The position numbers and the translations under genes are program-made. Of a stretch of 64,000 bases of DNA, positions 4,559 through 13,969 are shown piece by piece. Source of the stretch: an uncultured Dehalococcoidia bacterium (GTDB taxonomy: Bacteria > Chloroflexota > Dehalococcoidia > Lucifugimonadales > Lucifugimonadaceae); assembly GCA_958295935.1 (NCBI GenBank), contig OY282385.1, forward strand, positions 868,001-932,000. The letters are read 5' to 3'. The notes under the pieces were generated by a model, which saw nothing but the letters and a program-made list of their open reading frames with translations, made no database searches and was not told where the DNA came from. Each line of letters opens with the position of its first letter. Within the stretch, counting starts at the first letter, position 1.

Positions 4559-5080
4559 CTATTTGTAGTAGAGGGCTGTGTAGGCGTGGTATAGGCCGAG
4601 TATGACGGTGAGGGCTGCGAGCATTACGTGTATGGCTATCCAGGATCCGAGGTATAGCTTGCTGCGAATTCTGATTCCAACGGGGCTTGCGGTTCCTACC
4701 AGCACGGCGGTCAGGAATATCCAGCTCAGCGCGGCGAGGTATCCGTATCCGATCTGTACGCTATGAAGATAGAAGAAGAGTGGTGCGAACATTCCGCTCT
4801 TCTGGTGGAACATCATCAGGCGTCTGAGATTTCTTCCTCTGAGGCCTTTGAGTCTCAACAGGAAGAGGCTCCACTGCCATGCGACGTAGAGGAAGATGAT
4901 GGCTCCGGTGGTGTATTTGAACCAATCCAGTGTTTGCAGTTCGTAGAGCCGGTTCCATCTGAGTTGGAGGGCGTCCTGGGCAAGGTAGGCGAGGACCAGA
5001 GCTATGCCCGCCAGCCTCCATCTCCACTGGGACAGTTTCGACAGGATGACGCCTTGCGCAAAGATCGGCAATCGGCGCAA
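4559..5080 (-). CDS. ferric-reductase-like diheme b-type membrane protein
   Basis: A 173-residue polytopic membrane protein with about four to five hydrophobic helices. Two helices each carry a pair of histidines 14 residues apart: H92/H106 and H151/H165. That spacing is the signature of the two stacked b-haems of ferric-reductase/NADPH-oxidase-type cores, so it probably passes electrons across the membrane. There is no flavin or NAD(P) domain. It is last in a minus-strand cluster with a Tll0287-like monohaem protein and a five-haem cytochrome c, its likely redox partners. The start is uncertain: TTG at 5080 has no clear ribosome site, and the frame stays open upstream to the stop of the preceding gene. 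Confidence 0.65.
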   Translation of the reverse strand: MRRLPIFAQGVILSKLSQWRWRLAGIALVLAYLAQDALQLRWNRLYELQTLDWFKYTTGAIIFLYVAWQWSLFLLRLKGLRGRNLRRLMMFHQKSGMFAPLFFYLHSVQIGYGYLAALSWIFLTAVLVGTASPVGIRIRSKLYLGSWIAIHVMLAALTVILGLYHAYTALYYK

Positions 5081-5227
5081 GGATGGTTTTCCGGCGTGTT
5101 CAGAGGCGACTATCGGGGATGTCCTTCGAGGACGTGTGACATGGCGGATCGTAGGCTGAAGTTGTTCTTTGGTTTGTCGGGATGGACGTGATTCGCGGTC
5201 TGGCGGCAGACGCGGGGCAGGCTGAAA

Positions 5228-6043
5228 TCATTCCTGGTTTTGTTGAAAGGCCAGGAGCGCATGGAGCGTGTCGGGGGACGCTATGAGCATGGCTTCCCGG
5301 GTGAAGACCTCGGTGGATGGCAGGAAGTAGCCTTGGTCGGGCCATTTTTGGCCGAGTGGAGGTGGGTTCGAGAAGGTTGACACCTTGTCTGCGTACTCCT
5401 GGTAGGCGTCGTGGAATGCCTGCCGCAGGGCGTTGATGATGGCGAGGGCTTCGTCGAGGCTTACCTGGCTTTGGGGGTATGACCATGTGGTTGCACCCAT
5501 GACGTCGCCTAATTTCCAGTCGGTTTTCGGCGATTCGGGTTCTGCGTTGTGACAGGTGACGCAGGCTTCTGCGACTGCGACGTCTGAGAACATGGCGGTA
5601 TGGAAGGCGATGTCGTCATCGAAGAAGAACTGCGGCTCGCCGGTGTTCTGTATGTTTTCGAAATACCGGTATTGGATGCCAGTGAACTTGTTGGCGTCGT
5701 TGATGGGGAATTGTGAGCCGAGGAAGAGGTACAGAGGCTCCGGGCTTCTCCGCAGGCTTTCTGCGGTTTCTCGCAGGAAGAGCGCGGGCAGAGGGCCGGC
5801 GTCCAGATCGGGATTTCTCCAGCGTTCATCGAATTGGAGTCCCGCCTCCTTGCCGGCGCCCACTATCCGCTCGGTCCAGAGCTTTCGTACAGCGTCGTTT
5901 TCGGCTTCGAGAATGGTGAAGACGGTTTCGATGGGAATCATCCGTCGTGCGGCGGTTACGCTGTCATCGGGCGGCGGGGCGTTCACAACGATGATCGCGA
6001 CGATGACGAGTACGAGGGCCAGGGTTGCTATGGCGAATTTCAT
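5228..6043 (-). CDS. Tll0287-like (DUF3365) monohaem c-type protein
   Basis: A 271-residue exported haem protein. Residues 3-20 form a signal anchor or signal peptide, so it acts outside the membrane. One haem c motif, CVTCH, is at 161-165. The LGSQFPINDANKFTG segment near 108-122 and the KLGDVMGATTWSYP segment after the haem match the DUF3365/Tll0287-like domain, a PAS-like fold that binds haem and is often attached to sensors. Here it is stand-alone. Its ATG overlaps the stop of the upstream five-haem cytochrome gene by 4 bp, and the b-type membrane protein follows in the same frame. Function is unknown; an electron-transfer or redox-sensing role is inferred. Confidence 0.75.
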   Translation of the reverse strand: MKFAIATLALVLVIVAIIVVNAPPPDDSVTAARRMIPIETVFTILEAENDAVRKLWTERIVGAGKEAGLQFDERWRNPDLDAGPLPALFLRETAESLRRSPEPLYLFLGSQFPINDANKFTGIQYRYFENIQNTGEPQFFFDDDIAFHTAMFSDVAVAEACVTCHNAEPESPKTDWKLGDVMGATTWSYPQSQVSLDEALAIINALRQAFHDAYQEYADKVSTFSNPPPLGQKWPDQGYFLPSTEVFTREAMLIASPDTLHALLAFQQNQE

Positions 6044-6747
6044 GGGTTCGCGCTTGCTCTGGTCCTGGAGGGTTCAACGAATTTTTCGAGGGAGTATGGC
6101 GAGGGGGCGCCGTGGAAGTATTTCCATATGCGCTCTTCGGGGATGCCGTCCATGAGGCTCACCGGGGTGTCTCTCTTGTGGTTTCCGTGGAAGTCGTGAC
6201 ACTGAAGGCAGGTATTCCAAGATTCGGTGCGCACGAGTTCGGCGTGGGCGGGACGGATAGGGTCGTTCTCGAGTTCGGTATCCTGATGGCAATGTACGCA
6301 GTATCCAATGGTGGGCAGGGTTACCCGTTTTCCCTGGTGCTCGGTGTGGCAGGTGATGCAGCTATAGACTTCAAGTTGCTGCCTGGCATCTGCGAAACGG
6401 GGTTCTAGAAAACGGGATATGGGATGTCGGTCATCGGGGCGTTCATGGCATTCCAAGCAGGAGTCGCTCGTGACGTCTTCCGATCCGAAGCTCATGGCGG
6501 AGTCTCGGAGGCGTAGCCAGTGATAGACGTTGGAGCTGACCTGCTGCGCCATGGAGCCTCTGGCCGGGAGGTGGCATTCGCTGCAGTCGATGCTCTCGTG
6601 CCCGGTGTTCATAGGTCCCTTGGCCACGAGGTCGTTTCTCTGCGGAAAGGTAAGAAATACTACGAACAGGGCGCCTAATACAGTTCCGACGATTAACCCT
6701 GCGTATTTCCACTGTAGCAGTAGTTTTCTAAGGCGGGCAATTTTCAT
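6040..6747 (-). CDS. membrane-anchored pentahaem cytochrome c
   Basis: About 235 residues with one N-terminal transmembrane helix (near 15-33) and five CxxCH haem c motifs at residues 55-59, 97-101, 130-134, 150-154 and 180-184. The layout resembles NapC/NirT and cytochrome c7-like carriers that take electrons from quinol or pass them along outside the membrane. Additional histidines (HTEHQGK, HDFHGNH) could be distal ligands. I chose ATG at 6747; a TTG at 6792 would add 15 residues ahead of the basic N-terminus and is less likely. Its stop overlaps the start of the Tll0287-like gene, so the cluster is translationally coupled. The terminal acceptor or donor is not evident. Confidence 0.8.
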   Translation of the reverse strand: MKIARLRKLLLQWKYAGLIVGTVLGALFVVFLTFPQRNDLVAKGPMNTGHESIDCSECHLPARGSMAQQVSSNVYHWLRLRDSAMSFGSEDVTSDSCLECHERPDDRHPISRFLEPRFADARQQLEVYSCITCHTEHQGKRVTLPTIGYCVHCHQDTELENDPIRPAHAELVRTESWNTCLQCHDFHGNHKRDTPVSLMDGIPEERIWKYFHGAPSPYSLEKFVEPSRTRASANP

Positions 6748-7087: not shown

Positions 7088-8014
7088 TCAGGCGTCGGGC
7101 GGCGGTACAACCACGCTTTGGTATGGGTGCCTGGAGCCTATGAGGCGACTATGCTCGAACACGTCGAGGGCGGAGTCGTAAAGGGCGGGTTCGATTGGGA
7201 TGTCCCCGGACCATGATCCCAGTTTTTGGTAGAAGCGTATGGCCTCTGTCACGGCTTGGCGTTCCATATCGGGGAAGAATGTTGCCTCTGCCTTGGCCAC
7301 CTCCGCGGGATCTGAGGTATTCACCCATTCTCGTGAGGCCCGGTATGCGGCTGTGAAACGCCTTGCATCGTCGGATTGAAGCCAGTCGTCCTTAGCCGCG
7401 AGGCTGCTGAATGCGACCGGGCCGATAACTTCCCCGACGGATGCGACGATACTCGCCACGCCTTCGCGCTCCAGTTGCTGCGGGTATGCGCCCTGTTCGT
7501 GGAAGTAATCGCCCTCTCCGCTGCGGAAGGATTCCATCATTTCCGGCGTGGTGGGCTTGTGGATTCCGTGAACCTGATCGAGGTCGACGCCCTGCTTGTG
7601 CAGTGCGTACCTGAGCATGGCTTCCGGCTGGCCTCCGTGTACGTAGGTTACGCGCCCGTCGAGGAGTTTCTTCCAGGTGAAATCCGGGTCTGGGCGGCGT
7701 GCGGCGATGAAGAAGCCGTCGTATCGGTTGATCTGGGCGAAGTGGCTGACCGGCGGTTTTTCGCCTCGGTCCAGCGGGGCCCATGAGGCGGATACTGCGG
7801 CCTGCCCAACGTCCGCCCTGCCGCCTGCTATTTCAGCGGGCGTAGTACTGCCATGCGGCGCTACGGAGTAGCTGCCTGAGAGGCCTTCGCGTGCTAGAAA
7901 CCCGCCGGCTATGGCGGCGATGAGCGGGCTGTAGAAGGCGGAGTGACGGGAAACCATGATGCGGATTTGGGTCACGGTAGAACCTTTCGGACTAACGATC
8001 CGGGATATGTTCAT
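7088..8014 (-). CDS. NMT1/THI5-like substrate-binding protein
   Basis: A 308-residue periplasmic-binding-protein-fold protein of the NMT1/THI5/SsuA type, which bind pyrimidine precursors, sulfonates or related small molecules. Supporting segments are FYSPLIAAIAGGFLAREGL (near 27-45), AEIAGGRADVGQAAVSA, and the domain-2 segment GEVIGPVAFSSLAAKDDWL. No signal peptide or lipobox is visible at either candidate start (ATG 8014, or a GTG 13 codons in), which is unusual for a transporter subunit. No permease or ATPase gene is next to it. It may work as a cytosolic binding protein or enzyme-like THI5 relative; substrate unknown. Confidence 0.7.
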   Translation of the reverse strand: MNISRIVSPKGSTVTQIRIMVSRHSAFYSPLIAAIAGGFLAREGLSGSYSVAPHGSTTPAEIAGGRADVGQAAVSASWAPLDRGEKPPVSHFAQINRYDGFFIAARRPDPDFTWKKLLDGRVTYVHGGQPEAMLRYALHKQGVDLDQVHGIHKPTTPEMMESFRSGEGDYFHEQGAYPQQLEREGVASIVASVGEVIGPVAFSSLAAKDDWLQSDDARRFTAAYRASREWVNTSDPAEVAKAEATFFPDMERQAVTEAIRFYQKLGSWSGDIPIEPALYDSALDVFEHSRLIGSRHPYQSVVVPPPDA

Positions 8015-10824: not shown

Positions 10825-11116
10825 GGCCGCACGCGCGGCGGGATTTCGGCAACCGTCATTGCCGCCAAGATAGAGGGCGGTCCTTGGTGCGCCGGACGCA
10901 CCTGCTGCCTTCTCTTTTTGCAGCGCCTCAACAAGGGCGCGGGGGTTGCCGCAACTGCATCATCATTGCCTGAGGGCTGAGGTGGTGGTTGGGAAATAGA
11001 GGCACGAGTGGAAGAAACGTCATCGCGCTATGTTTGGGCGGCAGCGCGTCATAAGATGAGGTCTCGGCCCGGCGCTATAGAGTTTGCGCGGCCTCCCAAA
11101 GGGTGACGACAGAAGC
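10825..11116. other. 292-bp intergenic region
   Basis: It holds a 6-bp hairpin (CGGCAA, loop CCGTCA, TTGCCG at 10847-10864) not followed by a T-run, so it is at most a weak transcription end for the lipoprotein gene. No RNA gene or clear promoter for the methylase was recognised. Confidence 0.45.
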
Positions 11117-13969
11117 ATGACCTCGTTTCCAGAACATGATCGCAGCCATGAGAGCGTCATCAATGACGCGTTGGCGCGTTTCCTGCGGGAGCGTCTCGGC
11201 CTGTCGGCGGCGGCGGAGACCCTTCACGGAAGGGTGCGGCCGGACATCGTGGTTCGCCTGCCGGAAAACCTCGTGGCGCTTGAGACGGAGCTTGAGCCGG
11301 CCAACACGGTCGATGCGGACGCGCTTTCGAGGCTCGGTCTTGAGATAGGCGGGCGCACGGTACAGAACGCCTTTGCGGTCACGCTTCCCGGCCAATTGCG
11401 TTCGACGGGCCAGGAACTGCTGCATGAGCGGATGGGGTCTGTTGCCGTGGAGTGGCAGGAGTGGCGCATTGACGGGACTTCCGGTCCGCGGCTATCCGGC
11501 TCGGTATCGGAGTTGGGGGATGCGGTTTCGCGCACCACACCGCCTGCCGGCAATCTGGAGGATGCAGTCGAGGTTCTCGATGCGGGTGTGAGGCGCGCGG
11601 GTGCGAGGCTGTACCGCGCGCCCGGCACGCTGGCCCGCGTTTCGAGAGTGTTCGGCTCGGCGCCCGGTGACGAGTCGGCAAACATGGCGGGGTTAGTCAT
11701 CATCAACGCGATGGTGTTTCAGGAGCGGCTGGCCAGCGGGAGCGCGGTGTATGAGTCGATAAGCGCTTCGCGCGTAGGTGGAGCCTTTTCACGCATCCGA
11801 CTTTTGCAGGCGTGGGAGCACATTCTGAAAATCGACTATTACCCGATATTCAGCATGGCTCTTCAGGTGGTCGAGCGCTTGTCGGAGGTGGAGGCGACGG
11901 AGGTGTTGGGAGAGTGCGCCCGTACTGCGTCGGAACTGCTCTCCACCGAGGCGGTTGGTCGGCACGACCTGGCGGGTAGGATATTCAACCGTCTGGTGTC
12001 GGAGCGGAAGTTGCTTGCGGCGTTCTATACGAGCGTGCCTGCGTCCACGCTTCTCGCCGGTCTGGTTCTCTCTCCCACCAGGTGGGATGGTATGGATTGG
12101 GGAGAGGTCGGGCAGGTGGGAAATCTGCGCGTAATCGACCCTGCCTGCGGCACGGGCACGTTGTTGATGGCGACGTACCGTCAGATACTCCAGAACCACT
12201 CTGCCAGCGGCGGTACGCTCTCCGGCGGTCCTTCCCTGCATCGGGAGCTGGTGGAAAATATCATCATTGGGGCTGACGTGGTGCAGGCCGCGATACACCT
12301 GACGGCTGCGACGCTGGCCGCGATGGCTCCGTCCGTGAGGTTCGAGCAGATGCAGTTGCATACGCTTCGGCTGGGCCGGGACGCGTCGGACAAGATCTGG
12401 CTAGGTTCTCTGGACTGGCTGGAGGCGCCTGAGACGCAGTCGTTCTTTTCGACTACGGAGGAGCAGATCGGGGCAAAGAACGGGGAGGGCAGCATCGTGA
12501 AGCATCCGGATGCGGACGTGGTGATCAGCAATCCTCCGTATACTCGGCGCGGCAGCGACGGCGGGCATGAGGAATCTCTGGCGCGGGTGTTCTCACTGCC
12601 GGCAGGCGATCTGGAATCGCAAGCGGCTATCGCTAAACGGACGTCCGCCCTACTGCGCGACACGCCTGCGAATCAGATGGCGGGACATGCGTCGTCGTTC
12701 ACGGCGCTTGCAGACCGGTTGGTCAAACCCGGCGGTCGCATTGCGCTGGTGCTGCCGGTCACCGCGTTGGCCGGGGAGTCTTGGCGCGAGATCCGCAAGA
12801 TGCTTTCCTGCAAGTACGAGGTGGAGTTCGCGGTGTCGTCGCATGATCCGGGCCTGCGCTCGATGTCTTACGACACGAGCATTGCGGAGGCCCTGCTGGT
12901 AGCGCGCAAACTGAGAGAGGGGCAGAAGTCGTCCGGTCGGGGGGTGTTCGTGAACCTGTGGCGTGCGCCGAGGCTGGAGACCGATGCGCTGGCGTTGGTC
13001 CGGGCAATCAACGCGGCGTCGGCCGCGGCACTGCACAGGTCGGACGGGCCGCCGGTGGGCGGGACTCCGCTGATCGTGGGCGGGGAGAGGTGGGGTGAGG
13101 TCGTGAACGGGCCGGTGGACTCGTCGAACTGGAAAACGGCCAGATGGAGAAGCGCTCTTACGGGCCAGTTCGCGTCGGCTCTGGAGCGCGGGGAGTTGTG
13201 GGACGAGCACGGCTCGCGGGTGGCGGCTCGTCTTCCCGTTGCGGCGTTGGGTGCGGTTTGCAACGTGGGGCCTCAGCACCGGAGGATACGCGGCTCGTTG
13301 GGGGTTTTCGAGGGCTATCACGGAGAGAATGGAGGAGCGCAGTTCCCTGCGCTGTGGAGTCTGGATTCAAGGGTTCACCAGAGCATGGTTTCGGAGCCCA
13401 ATGCGTGGCTCGCGCCTCAACCTGGTCGCGATCACGAACCGATCTGGTCGCAGTCGGGCACGCTTCACATGACCTGCGACGTTGGATACGGCTCACAGCG
13501 AATAATGGCGACTCGTACCAACCGCATGGTTCTTGGGGTTCGGGCTTGGCACACATTGAATGTCTTTGAGAGTGACCCCGAAGTAAAAGCCACGCTAGAG
13601 ATTGCATTGGCGCTGTGGTGCAATAGCGCGCTTGGTTTGCTGCTACATGCCAATCATTCCAATCGAGTGCAGCCGGGCCGCGGTACCGGTAGCAAAGGAA
13701 TGTTGGAGACGATGTCCACGCTTGACGTGCGTCGGCTTGAGGGGTGGCAGTTGGATGAAGTTGGGAAGATGTGGCGCGATTTCAGGGAGCGCAAGTTCAG
13801 GTCGTTCCATCGCTGTGCTGTGGATCCGGCGCGGACAGAGTTGGATGAGCGAATTGTTCGAGACCTGTTCGGCCTCGGTCAGGATGCGGTGGACGCGGTG
13901 GCCCGAATACGTTTGCTGCTTGGCAACGACCCATCTATCCATGGCGGCCACAAGCCGGAACTGCCATGA
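11117..13969 (+). CDS. large N6-adenine DNA methyltransferase with nuclease-like N-terminus
   Basis: About 950 residues. The SAM-binding motif I (IDPACGTGTLL) is at ~340-350 and the catalytic motif IV (NPPY) at 472-475, in the gamma-class order of HsdM/type IIG enzymes. A long C-terminal part (about 600-950) is probably target recognition. Near the N-terminus, RPDIVV (P42-D43) followed by LETELEP (E56-x-E58) resembles the PD-(D/E)xK nuclease core, but the expected lysine is Glu, so cleavage is doubtful. ATG 11117 is chosen over TTG 11084. No restriction or specificity gene is adjacent. It may be a solitary methylase, a type IIG relative, or part of a phage-defence set; which one is unresolved. 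Confidence 0.82.
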   Translation: MTSFPEHDRSHESVINDALARFLRERLGLSAAAETLHGRVRPDIVVRLPENLVALETELEPANTVDADALSRLGLEIGGRTVQNAFAVTLPGQLRSTGQELLHERMGSVAVEWQEWRIDGTSGPRLSGSVSELGDAVSRTTPPAGNLEDAVEVLDAGVRRAGARLYRAPGTLARVSRVFGSAPGDESANMAGLVIINAMVFQERLASGSAVYESISASRVGGAFSRIRLLQAWEHILKIDYYPIFSMALQVVERLSEVEATEVLGECARTASELLSTEAVGRHDLAGRIFNRLVSERKLLAAFYTSVPASTLLAGLVLSPTRWDGMDWGEVGQVGNLRVIDPACGTGTLLMATYRQILQNHSASGGTLSGGPSLHRELVENIIIGADVVQAAIHLTAATLAAMAPSVRFEQMQLHTLRLGRDASDKIWLGSLDWLEAPETQSFFSTTEEQIGAKNGEGSIVKHPDADVVISNPPYTRRGSDGGHEESLARVFSLPAGDLESQAAIAKRTSALLRDTPANQMAGHASSFTALADRLVKPGGRIALVLPVTALAGESWREIRKMLSCKYEVEFAVSSHDPGLRSMSYDTSIAEALLVARKLREGQKSSGRGVFVNLWRAPRLETDALALVRAINAASAAALHRSDGPPVGGTPLIVGGERWGEVVNGPVDSSNWKTARWRSALTGQFASALERGELWDEHGSRVAARLPVAALGAVCNVGPQHRRIRGSLGVFEGYHGENGGAQFPALWSLDSRVHQSMVSEPNAWLAPQPGRDHEPIWSQSGTLHMTCDVGYGSQRIMATRTNRMVLGVRAWHTLNVFESDPEVKATLEIALALWCNSALGLLLHANHSNRVQPGRGTGSKGMLETMSTLDVRRLEGWQLDEVGKMWRDFRERKFRSFHRCAVDPARTELDERIVRDLFGLGQDAVDAVARIRLLLGNDPSIHGGHKPELP

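Follow-up and report, generated by a model that had tools for sequence, protein, structure and literature searches.

A conserved haem-protein module of Chloroflexota and Bacteroidota, a likely conduit for transmembrane electron export

We analyzed a 64,000-nucleotide stretch of DNA (the window) from a Dehalococcoidia genome consisting of a single 2.75-Mb contig and found it to contain a conserved haem module with invariant ligands, which occurs in at least 80 sequenced species. The module is real and apparently undescribed, and its carriers, several dozen bacteria, are mostly marine; a role as an electron conduit is likely, and the acceptor that we propose for it is a hypothesis. The preliminary description of the locus had known of no named complex with this make-up, in agreement with the open-access literature, in which we found neither a description nor a name.

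All three proteins of the preliminary description, a pentahaem, a monohaem Tll0287-like and a four-histidine membrane protein, are encoded in the window as it had placed them, on the minus strand. The first gene (6040..6747, ATG at 6747) encodes a c-type cytochrome of 235 aa with five haem motifs and an N-terminal membrane anchor; the second (5228..6043, ATG at 6043) a monohaem Tll0287-like (sCache_heme) protein of 271 aa, likewise with an N-terminal anchor; and the third (4559..5080, TTG at 5080) a 173-aa membrane protein with five predicted helices, a putative di-haem cytochrome b resembling those of ferric reductases and NOX. The reported 4-bp overlap of the first two genes is present (ATGA). 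The genes are consecutive on one strand, as had been claimed, but the third does not touch the second in the window: the two are separated by 147 bp (5081..5227) that are open in frame and lack a usual start codon. In two relatives (L003 and L004), the same junction is a 4-bp overlap. Neighboring genes on one side of the trio encode an aldolase and a nitroreductase; on the other side are genes for an NMT1-like binding protein and an epimerase. The vicinity had been proposed as a place to look for a terminal reductase or oxidase, and none lies within ~10 kb of the trio in the window. The NMT1-like protein (7088-8014) was considered as a nitrate-binding protein and set aside, having no BLAST match to NrtA-like proteins. 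Farther along the window, positions 11084-13969 encode a 961-aa protein resembling N6 DNA methylases (PF02384, E 4.3e-6), which may serve in restriction-modification or phage defence.

The pentahaem protein contains the motifs CSECH, CLECH, CITCH, CVHCH and CLQCH as well as an N-terminal hydrophobic helix, and it matches the Pfam multihaem families Cytochrom_c3_2 (5.4e-7) and Cytochrom_CIII (1.7e-5). The five CXXCH motifs and six further histidines (H50, H108, H137, H168, H187 and H190) are invariant in 79 sequences, and judging from the alignment, they would probably suffice for bis-His ligation of each haem, with one His to spare. Identity to the window protein is 64-67% in Chloroflexota and 42-51% in Bacteroidota. 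Matches to functionally named families were weak, the scores being 28.6 bits for DmsE (9.1e-7; cut-off 192), 17.9 bits for NrfH (cut-off 134) and, for QrcA, 0.001, far under the cut-off. The AF2 model of the protein was poor (pLDDT 64) and too low in confidence for a fold search. Sequence searches of the PDB with all three proteins or their profiles gave nothing useful, and a PHROGs search gave no match.

The second protein is assigned to the Tll0287-like family (PF11845) with 32.8 bits against a cut-off of 24.1, and the family is matched by 30 of 30 members. The window protein has a single haem motif, CVTCH, and no Cys beyond the two of that motif; CXXCH, M151, K173 and Y189 are invariant in 80 proteins. 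Tll0287 itself has axial Cys/His haem ligation. A counterpart of its axial Cys is absent from the window protein and from the alignment of relatives, where the other common Cys column is that of the lipoprotein Cys, and the invariant M151 might occupy the sixth haem position. We know of no function for stand-alone Tll0287-like proteins, and the module offers a possible role for them. Among related domains, tight NO binding has been measured for a Cys-less sCache_heme domain in a signalling protein and weak NO binding for a stand-alone, Cys-bearing sCache_heme protein (PMC12889525). As the module protein is stand-alone yet Cys-less, it could bind NO either tightly or weakly. Domains of this kind fused to signalling modules show NO-sensor properties (PMC12889525), and one could imagine that the Tll0287-like haem senses NO, its redox state being controlled by the other haem proteins. 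However, the protein stands alone with no output domain, and its five-haem and two-haem partners are invariant, an arrangement suited to electron transfer; we regard a sensory role as very improbable.

The membrane protein has two His pairs, H92/H106 and H151/H165, the members of each lying 14 residues apart. The preliminary description had hinged on the conservation of these residues, and all four proved invariant in 78 membrane proteins. An AF2 model based on 48 sequences (pLDDT 88.9) has five membrane helices, with H92 and H106 on TM3 and H151 and H165 on TM5, and the four residues would be placed to hold two b haems. Inspection of the sequence showed many Arg and Lys residues in the loops that join helices 2-3 and 4-5, which should put H92 and H151 on the inside and H106 and H165 on the outside. 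In SpNOX, the haem-binding pairs are H69/H129 and H82/H142, similarly on TM3 and TM5 (PMC11031084), and the distance between partner histidines is 60 residues there and 59 in the module protein. The ferric reductase domain (PF01794) was matched by 39 of 48 members with a best E of 1.2e-5; the window protein alone matched it at E 0.37, under the cut-off. Structural matches (VIA) included SpNOX (8qt6, Z 8.0, 18% identity over 120 residues) and E. coli superoxide oxidase (5oc0, Z 9.9), among rows that were mostly generic helical bundles; as such bundles easily reach Z ~8-10, these scores are not decisive. Foldseek with the model gave no match below 0.001, and hhalign against three FRD proteins gave none. 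Judged by sequence and model, the protein resembles the FRD proteins, and we do not file it as a member of that superfamily.

To study the distribution of the module, we scanned genomes using the pentahaem alignment alone and obtained 132 relatives, of which 80 were kept; a single-sequence scan of genome contigs with the Tll0287-like protein had found nothing. Five of the kept loci are from Chloroflexota or L018, and 75 are assigned to Bacteroidota; one or two of the latter come from MAGs without a label and are counted there by their position in the tree. By BLAST on the picked ORFs, the Tll0287-like gene was found in 79 and the membrane gene in 77 of the 80 loci; the latter is also present in L016 and L017 under another ORF choice, and L019 is at a contig edge. 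Although the scan was seeded by the pentahaem protein alone, every locus not cut short contains all three genes. The protein distances of the three genes correlate (r 0.92-0.94), and shared species descent contributes to this. In the pentahaem tree, the Chloroflexota copies are set apart from all Bacteroidota copies (100/99) on long branches. As the preliminary description had proposed to check, the trio is adjacent in relatives, in other families and in another phylum; the retained order and the invariant ligands rule out that the three genes are chance neighbors. L018 is a MAG labelled as Gammaproteobacteria in which a 21-kb contig bears a copy resembling those of Chloroflexota (65% identity), possibly through misbinning or transfer.

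Within the phylum of the window, the module is rare. Among 60 relatives, only two (G050 and G058), from other families of the same taxonomic order, carry the genes, adjacent and 61-66% identical, and carriers were rare also in wider samples of the class and the phylum. Two genomes of another class are carriers as well: in G586, the pentahaem gene is followed by a Tll0287-like gene that runs off the end of the contig, and G447 has the Tll0287-like and membrane genes and no pentahaem protein anywhere in the genome. Directly before the Tll0287-like gene of G447 lies a gene for a sulfite-oxidase-family molybdoprotein (PF00174; L012:4857-6155, the same as L010:16-1314), recalling MsrP-MsrQ. Named matching records are Dehalococcoidia and Chloroflexota MAGs, and judging by the isolate names, some of them appear to come from sponges. 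Several neighborhoods contain other features. Downstream of the pentahaem gene of G586 (L015:5473-13108), we recognized by eye CRISPR-cas genes, with ORFs resembling Cas3, Cas8c/Csd1 and Cas1, and an ORF resembling N6-methylases. In a Dehalococcoidia MAG (L020:9374-12670), the module is immediately followed by a tandem series of four 224-aa ORFs, almost identical to one another and spaced at 874 bp, which may represent a gene array or have arisen in the assembly. In G050, a set of imelysin, di-haem oxidoreductase (DHOR) and imelysin genes (L013:2481-6200) adjoins the module on the same strand. Elsewhere, a formate-dehydrogenase-like gene (L128:2193-5081; G000:C1, about 380-383 kb) contains an in-frame TGA, perhaps a selenocysteine codon.

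Ferric reductases reduce Fe(III) outside the membrane, and the imelysin/DHOR/imelysin set is linked to iron uptake. The FRD-like nature of the membrane protein and the set that follows the module in G050 are consistent with the module reducing Fe(III) outside the membrane for iron uptake. Such a neighborhood is, however, absent at the window, G058, L020 and every Bacteroidota locus examined, and we consider ferric reduction improbable.

The preliminary description had presented the trio as a compact cluster. The linkage of the genes stood, but the trio turned out to be the core of a larger, widespread module, to which Bacteroidota add a reductase and usually a globin. In 73 of the 75 Bacteroidota loci, genes for the Tll0287-like protein, the membrane protein, the FAD/NAD/2Fe-2S reductase and the pentahaem protein follow in this order on one strand, and four of the 73 have a CcmF-like gene ahead of the last; the remaining two have the order of the window, pentahaem, Tll0287-like, membrane. 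The reductase, consisting of FAD_binding_6, NAD_binding_1 and Fer2 domains, is in the module in 73 of the 75 loci, and a globin gene is found in 71. Many carriers are cultured marine Flavobacteriaceae (for example Maribacter, Zobellia, Algibacter and Tamlana), and the module is open to tests in cultured strains. In a Lewinella MAG (L082), reductase and pentahaem protein form one 587-aa ORF without a stop, in which the flavin, NAD and 2Fe-2S domains are followed by KRRGNRR, a hydrophobic helix and the five CXXCH motifs. The basic flank of the helix would keep the flavin part on the inner and the haems on the outer side of the membrane. This fusion, seen in one MAG, gives the best single indication that the reductase partners the cytochromes and that electrons pass from inside to outside.

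The Chloroflexota carriers differ in this respect. We found no close relative of the cognate reductase in their genomes, only remote FNR matches with E no better than 1.7e-30, and no globin in any of the seven carrier genomes searched, which comprised the Chloroflexota carriers, the window genome included, and the genome of L018. Modules of the NapC/NrfH and PsrC types pass menaquinol electrons to a periplasmic partner, and in a similar manner the membrane protein might take electrons from menaquinol, with the periplasmic cytochromes feeding a soluble partner. Such a quinol-fed branch would suit Chloroflexota, and it draws on the absence of the cognate reductase from genomes of the window's lineage, on the NrfH/QrcA-type matches of the pentahaem protein, weak as they are, and on the TM anchor beside its first haem. 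Against it, the Bacteroidota reductase is nearly always in the module and is once fused, and the FRD-type proteins characterized so far use flavin donors on the inner side (PMC11031084). We regard the quinol-fed branch as unlikely for the module; for the window organism, the donor may be another flavin reductase, as for MsrQ, or quinol.

We favor a split chain resembling NADPH oxidase. The membrane protein would hold two b haems stacked across the membrane, one at H92/H151 near the cytoplasm and the other at H106/H165 near the outside, and pass electrons to two membrane-anchored cytochromes on the outside, the monohaem Tll0287-like and the pentahaem protein. In Bacteroidota, the electrons would most likely come from NAD(P)H through the separate FAD/NAD/2Fe-2S reductase, giving a chain from NAD(P)H by flavin and two b haems to six c haems, with a c haem instead of O2 as the acceptor. 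The preliminary description had electrons leave the quinol pool or cytosol through six c-type and two b-type haems; the outward route is well supported and fits the data best, and for the donor, the Bacteroidota reductase points to NAD(P)H and flavin instead of quinol. That the trio is a transmembrane electron-export conduit we consider probable, and we infer the haem loading, the haem pairing, the direction of flow, the physical complex and NO as an acceptor.

Such a chain would most likely serve to reduce or scavenge nitrogen oxides (NO and perhaps nitrite) at the haem of the Cys-less Tll0287-like protein, which would protect nitrate-reducing cells. This idea stems from the Bacteroidota neighborhoods. 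NrtA-like proteins are encoded at 48 loci, accompanied by genes for permeases and ATPases whose matches to nitrate ABC models fall short of the cut-offs. Genes for NarK-type transporters, siroheme methyltransferase, MoeA and Crp-type regulators are also frequent neighbors. In Maribacter, Zobellia, Marinoscillum and L089, a NasA-NirB fusion lies next to the locus; in Algibacter (L127), the fusion is ~20 kb off, and a NapA operon lies directly upstream of the module. FeS/NrfD genes of the Nap type are found in 8 loci. Most loci, but not all, have nitrate genes within 6 kb, and the globin is the more constant companion. The Algibacter operon (L127:6608-11490) is itself unusual looking, in that genes for two additional multihaem cytochromes and FeS/NrfD genes accompany that for NapA.

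The proximity of NapA, NasA and Nap-type FeS/NrfD genes could mean that the module feeds electrons directly to periplasmic NapA or to NasA. Since NasA includes a NirB-like NAD(P)H domain and the Nap operon encodes cytochromes and NrfD for itself, neither is likely to have the module as its main donor; the window genome, moreover, has neither NasA nor NapA, and we think direct feeding quite improbable. Handling of NO or nitrite arising from nitrate reduction is the better guess. The window genome encodes three molybdopterin proteins, two formate dehydrogenase-like and one QrcB/ActB-like, and no nitrate reductase was recognized among them; sulfite/nitrite reductase was present in every genome searched and so does not discriminate. 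With globin, cognate reductase and a recognized nitrate reductase all absent from the window genome, the nitrogen link derives from Bacteroidota only and would reach the window's lineage by homology alone. Given a conduit, a nitrogen-oxide purpose is in our view evenly balanced, and the explanation as a whole, a split NOX-like export conduit serving nitrogen-oxide chemistry, has perhaps an even chance of being correct. More speculatively, the module could be a periplasmic NO (or nitrite) reductase of a new kind, a split NOX-like chain that would carry NAD(P)H electrons through two b haems and the pentahaem protein to reduce NO at a five-coordinate Cache c haem and would form, together with the cytosolic globin, a two-sided NO defence of nitrate-using bacteria; we regard this as improbable.

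The module can be compared with several known systems. With SpNOX and the FRD superfamily, it would share two b haems between TM3 and TM5, a FAD/NAD(P)H reductase on the cytosolic side and the export of electrons; it differs in having separate membrane and reductase genes, the reductase being absent in the window's lineage, and dedicated c-type cytochromes as acceptors. Unlike in NOX, the FNR-type dehydrogenase is a separate adjacent gene in 73 of 75 Bacteroidota loci and has no cognate gene in Chloroflexota carriers, and in contrast to FRD, NOX and MsrQ proteins, the membrane protein has five predicted helices instead of six and a His spacing of 14 instead of 13. The combination suggests that FRD-type proteins may feed dedicated cytochrome chains, beyond O2, iron or MsrP. 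In MsrPQ, too, the gene of an FRD membrane protein, MsrQ, is paired with that of a periplasmic partner of its own, MsrP, which MsrQ feeds, and in G447 a molybdoprotein gene precedes the Tll0287-like and membrane genes; in all other loci, the partners are multihaem and monohaem cytochromes and not a molybdoprotein. Bacteroidota loci resemble flavohaemoglobin (Hmp) in holding an Hmp-like globin and a FAD/NAD reductase, but here these form two proteins, a 2Fe-2S domain is part of the reductase, the loci also encode membrane and c-type proteins, and the window genome has no globin. Likeness to the multihaem cytochromes DmsE/MtrA, NrfB and ActA/QrcA consists of weak family matches, all far under the family cut-offs, with the five haems and TM anchor resembling ActA; the partner genes MtrB/MtrC, NrfA and Act/Qrc do not adjoin, the protein has five CXXCH motifs and is not a decahaem cytochrome as in the extracellular respiration of MtrA/DmsE, and the cut-off of the NapC/NrfH quinol dehydrogenases is not reached. 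Finally, with Tll0287 and the sCache_heme family (PF11845), the monohaem protein shares a Pfam match over the cut-off, the invariant CXXCH and a stand-alone domain, but in place of an axial Cys it has an invariant Met151, and it is always found in a module with a pentahaem and an FRD-type protein.
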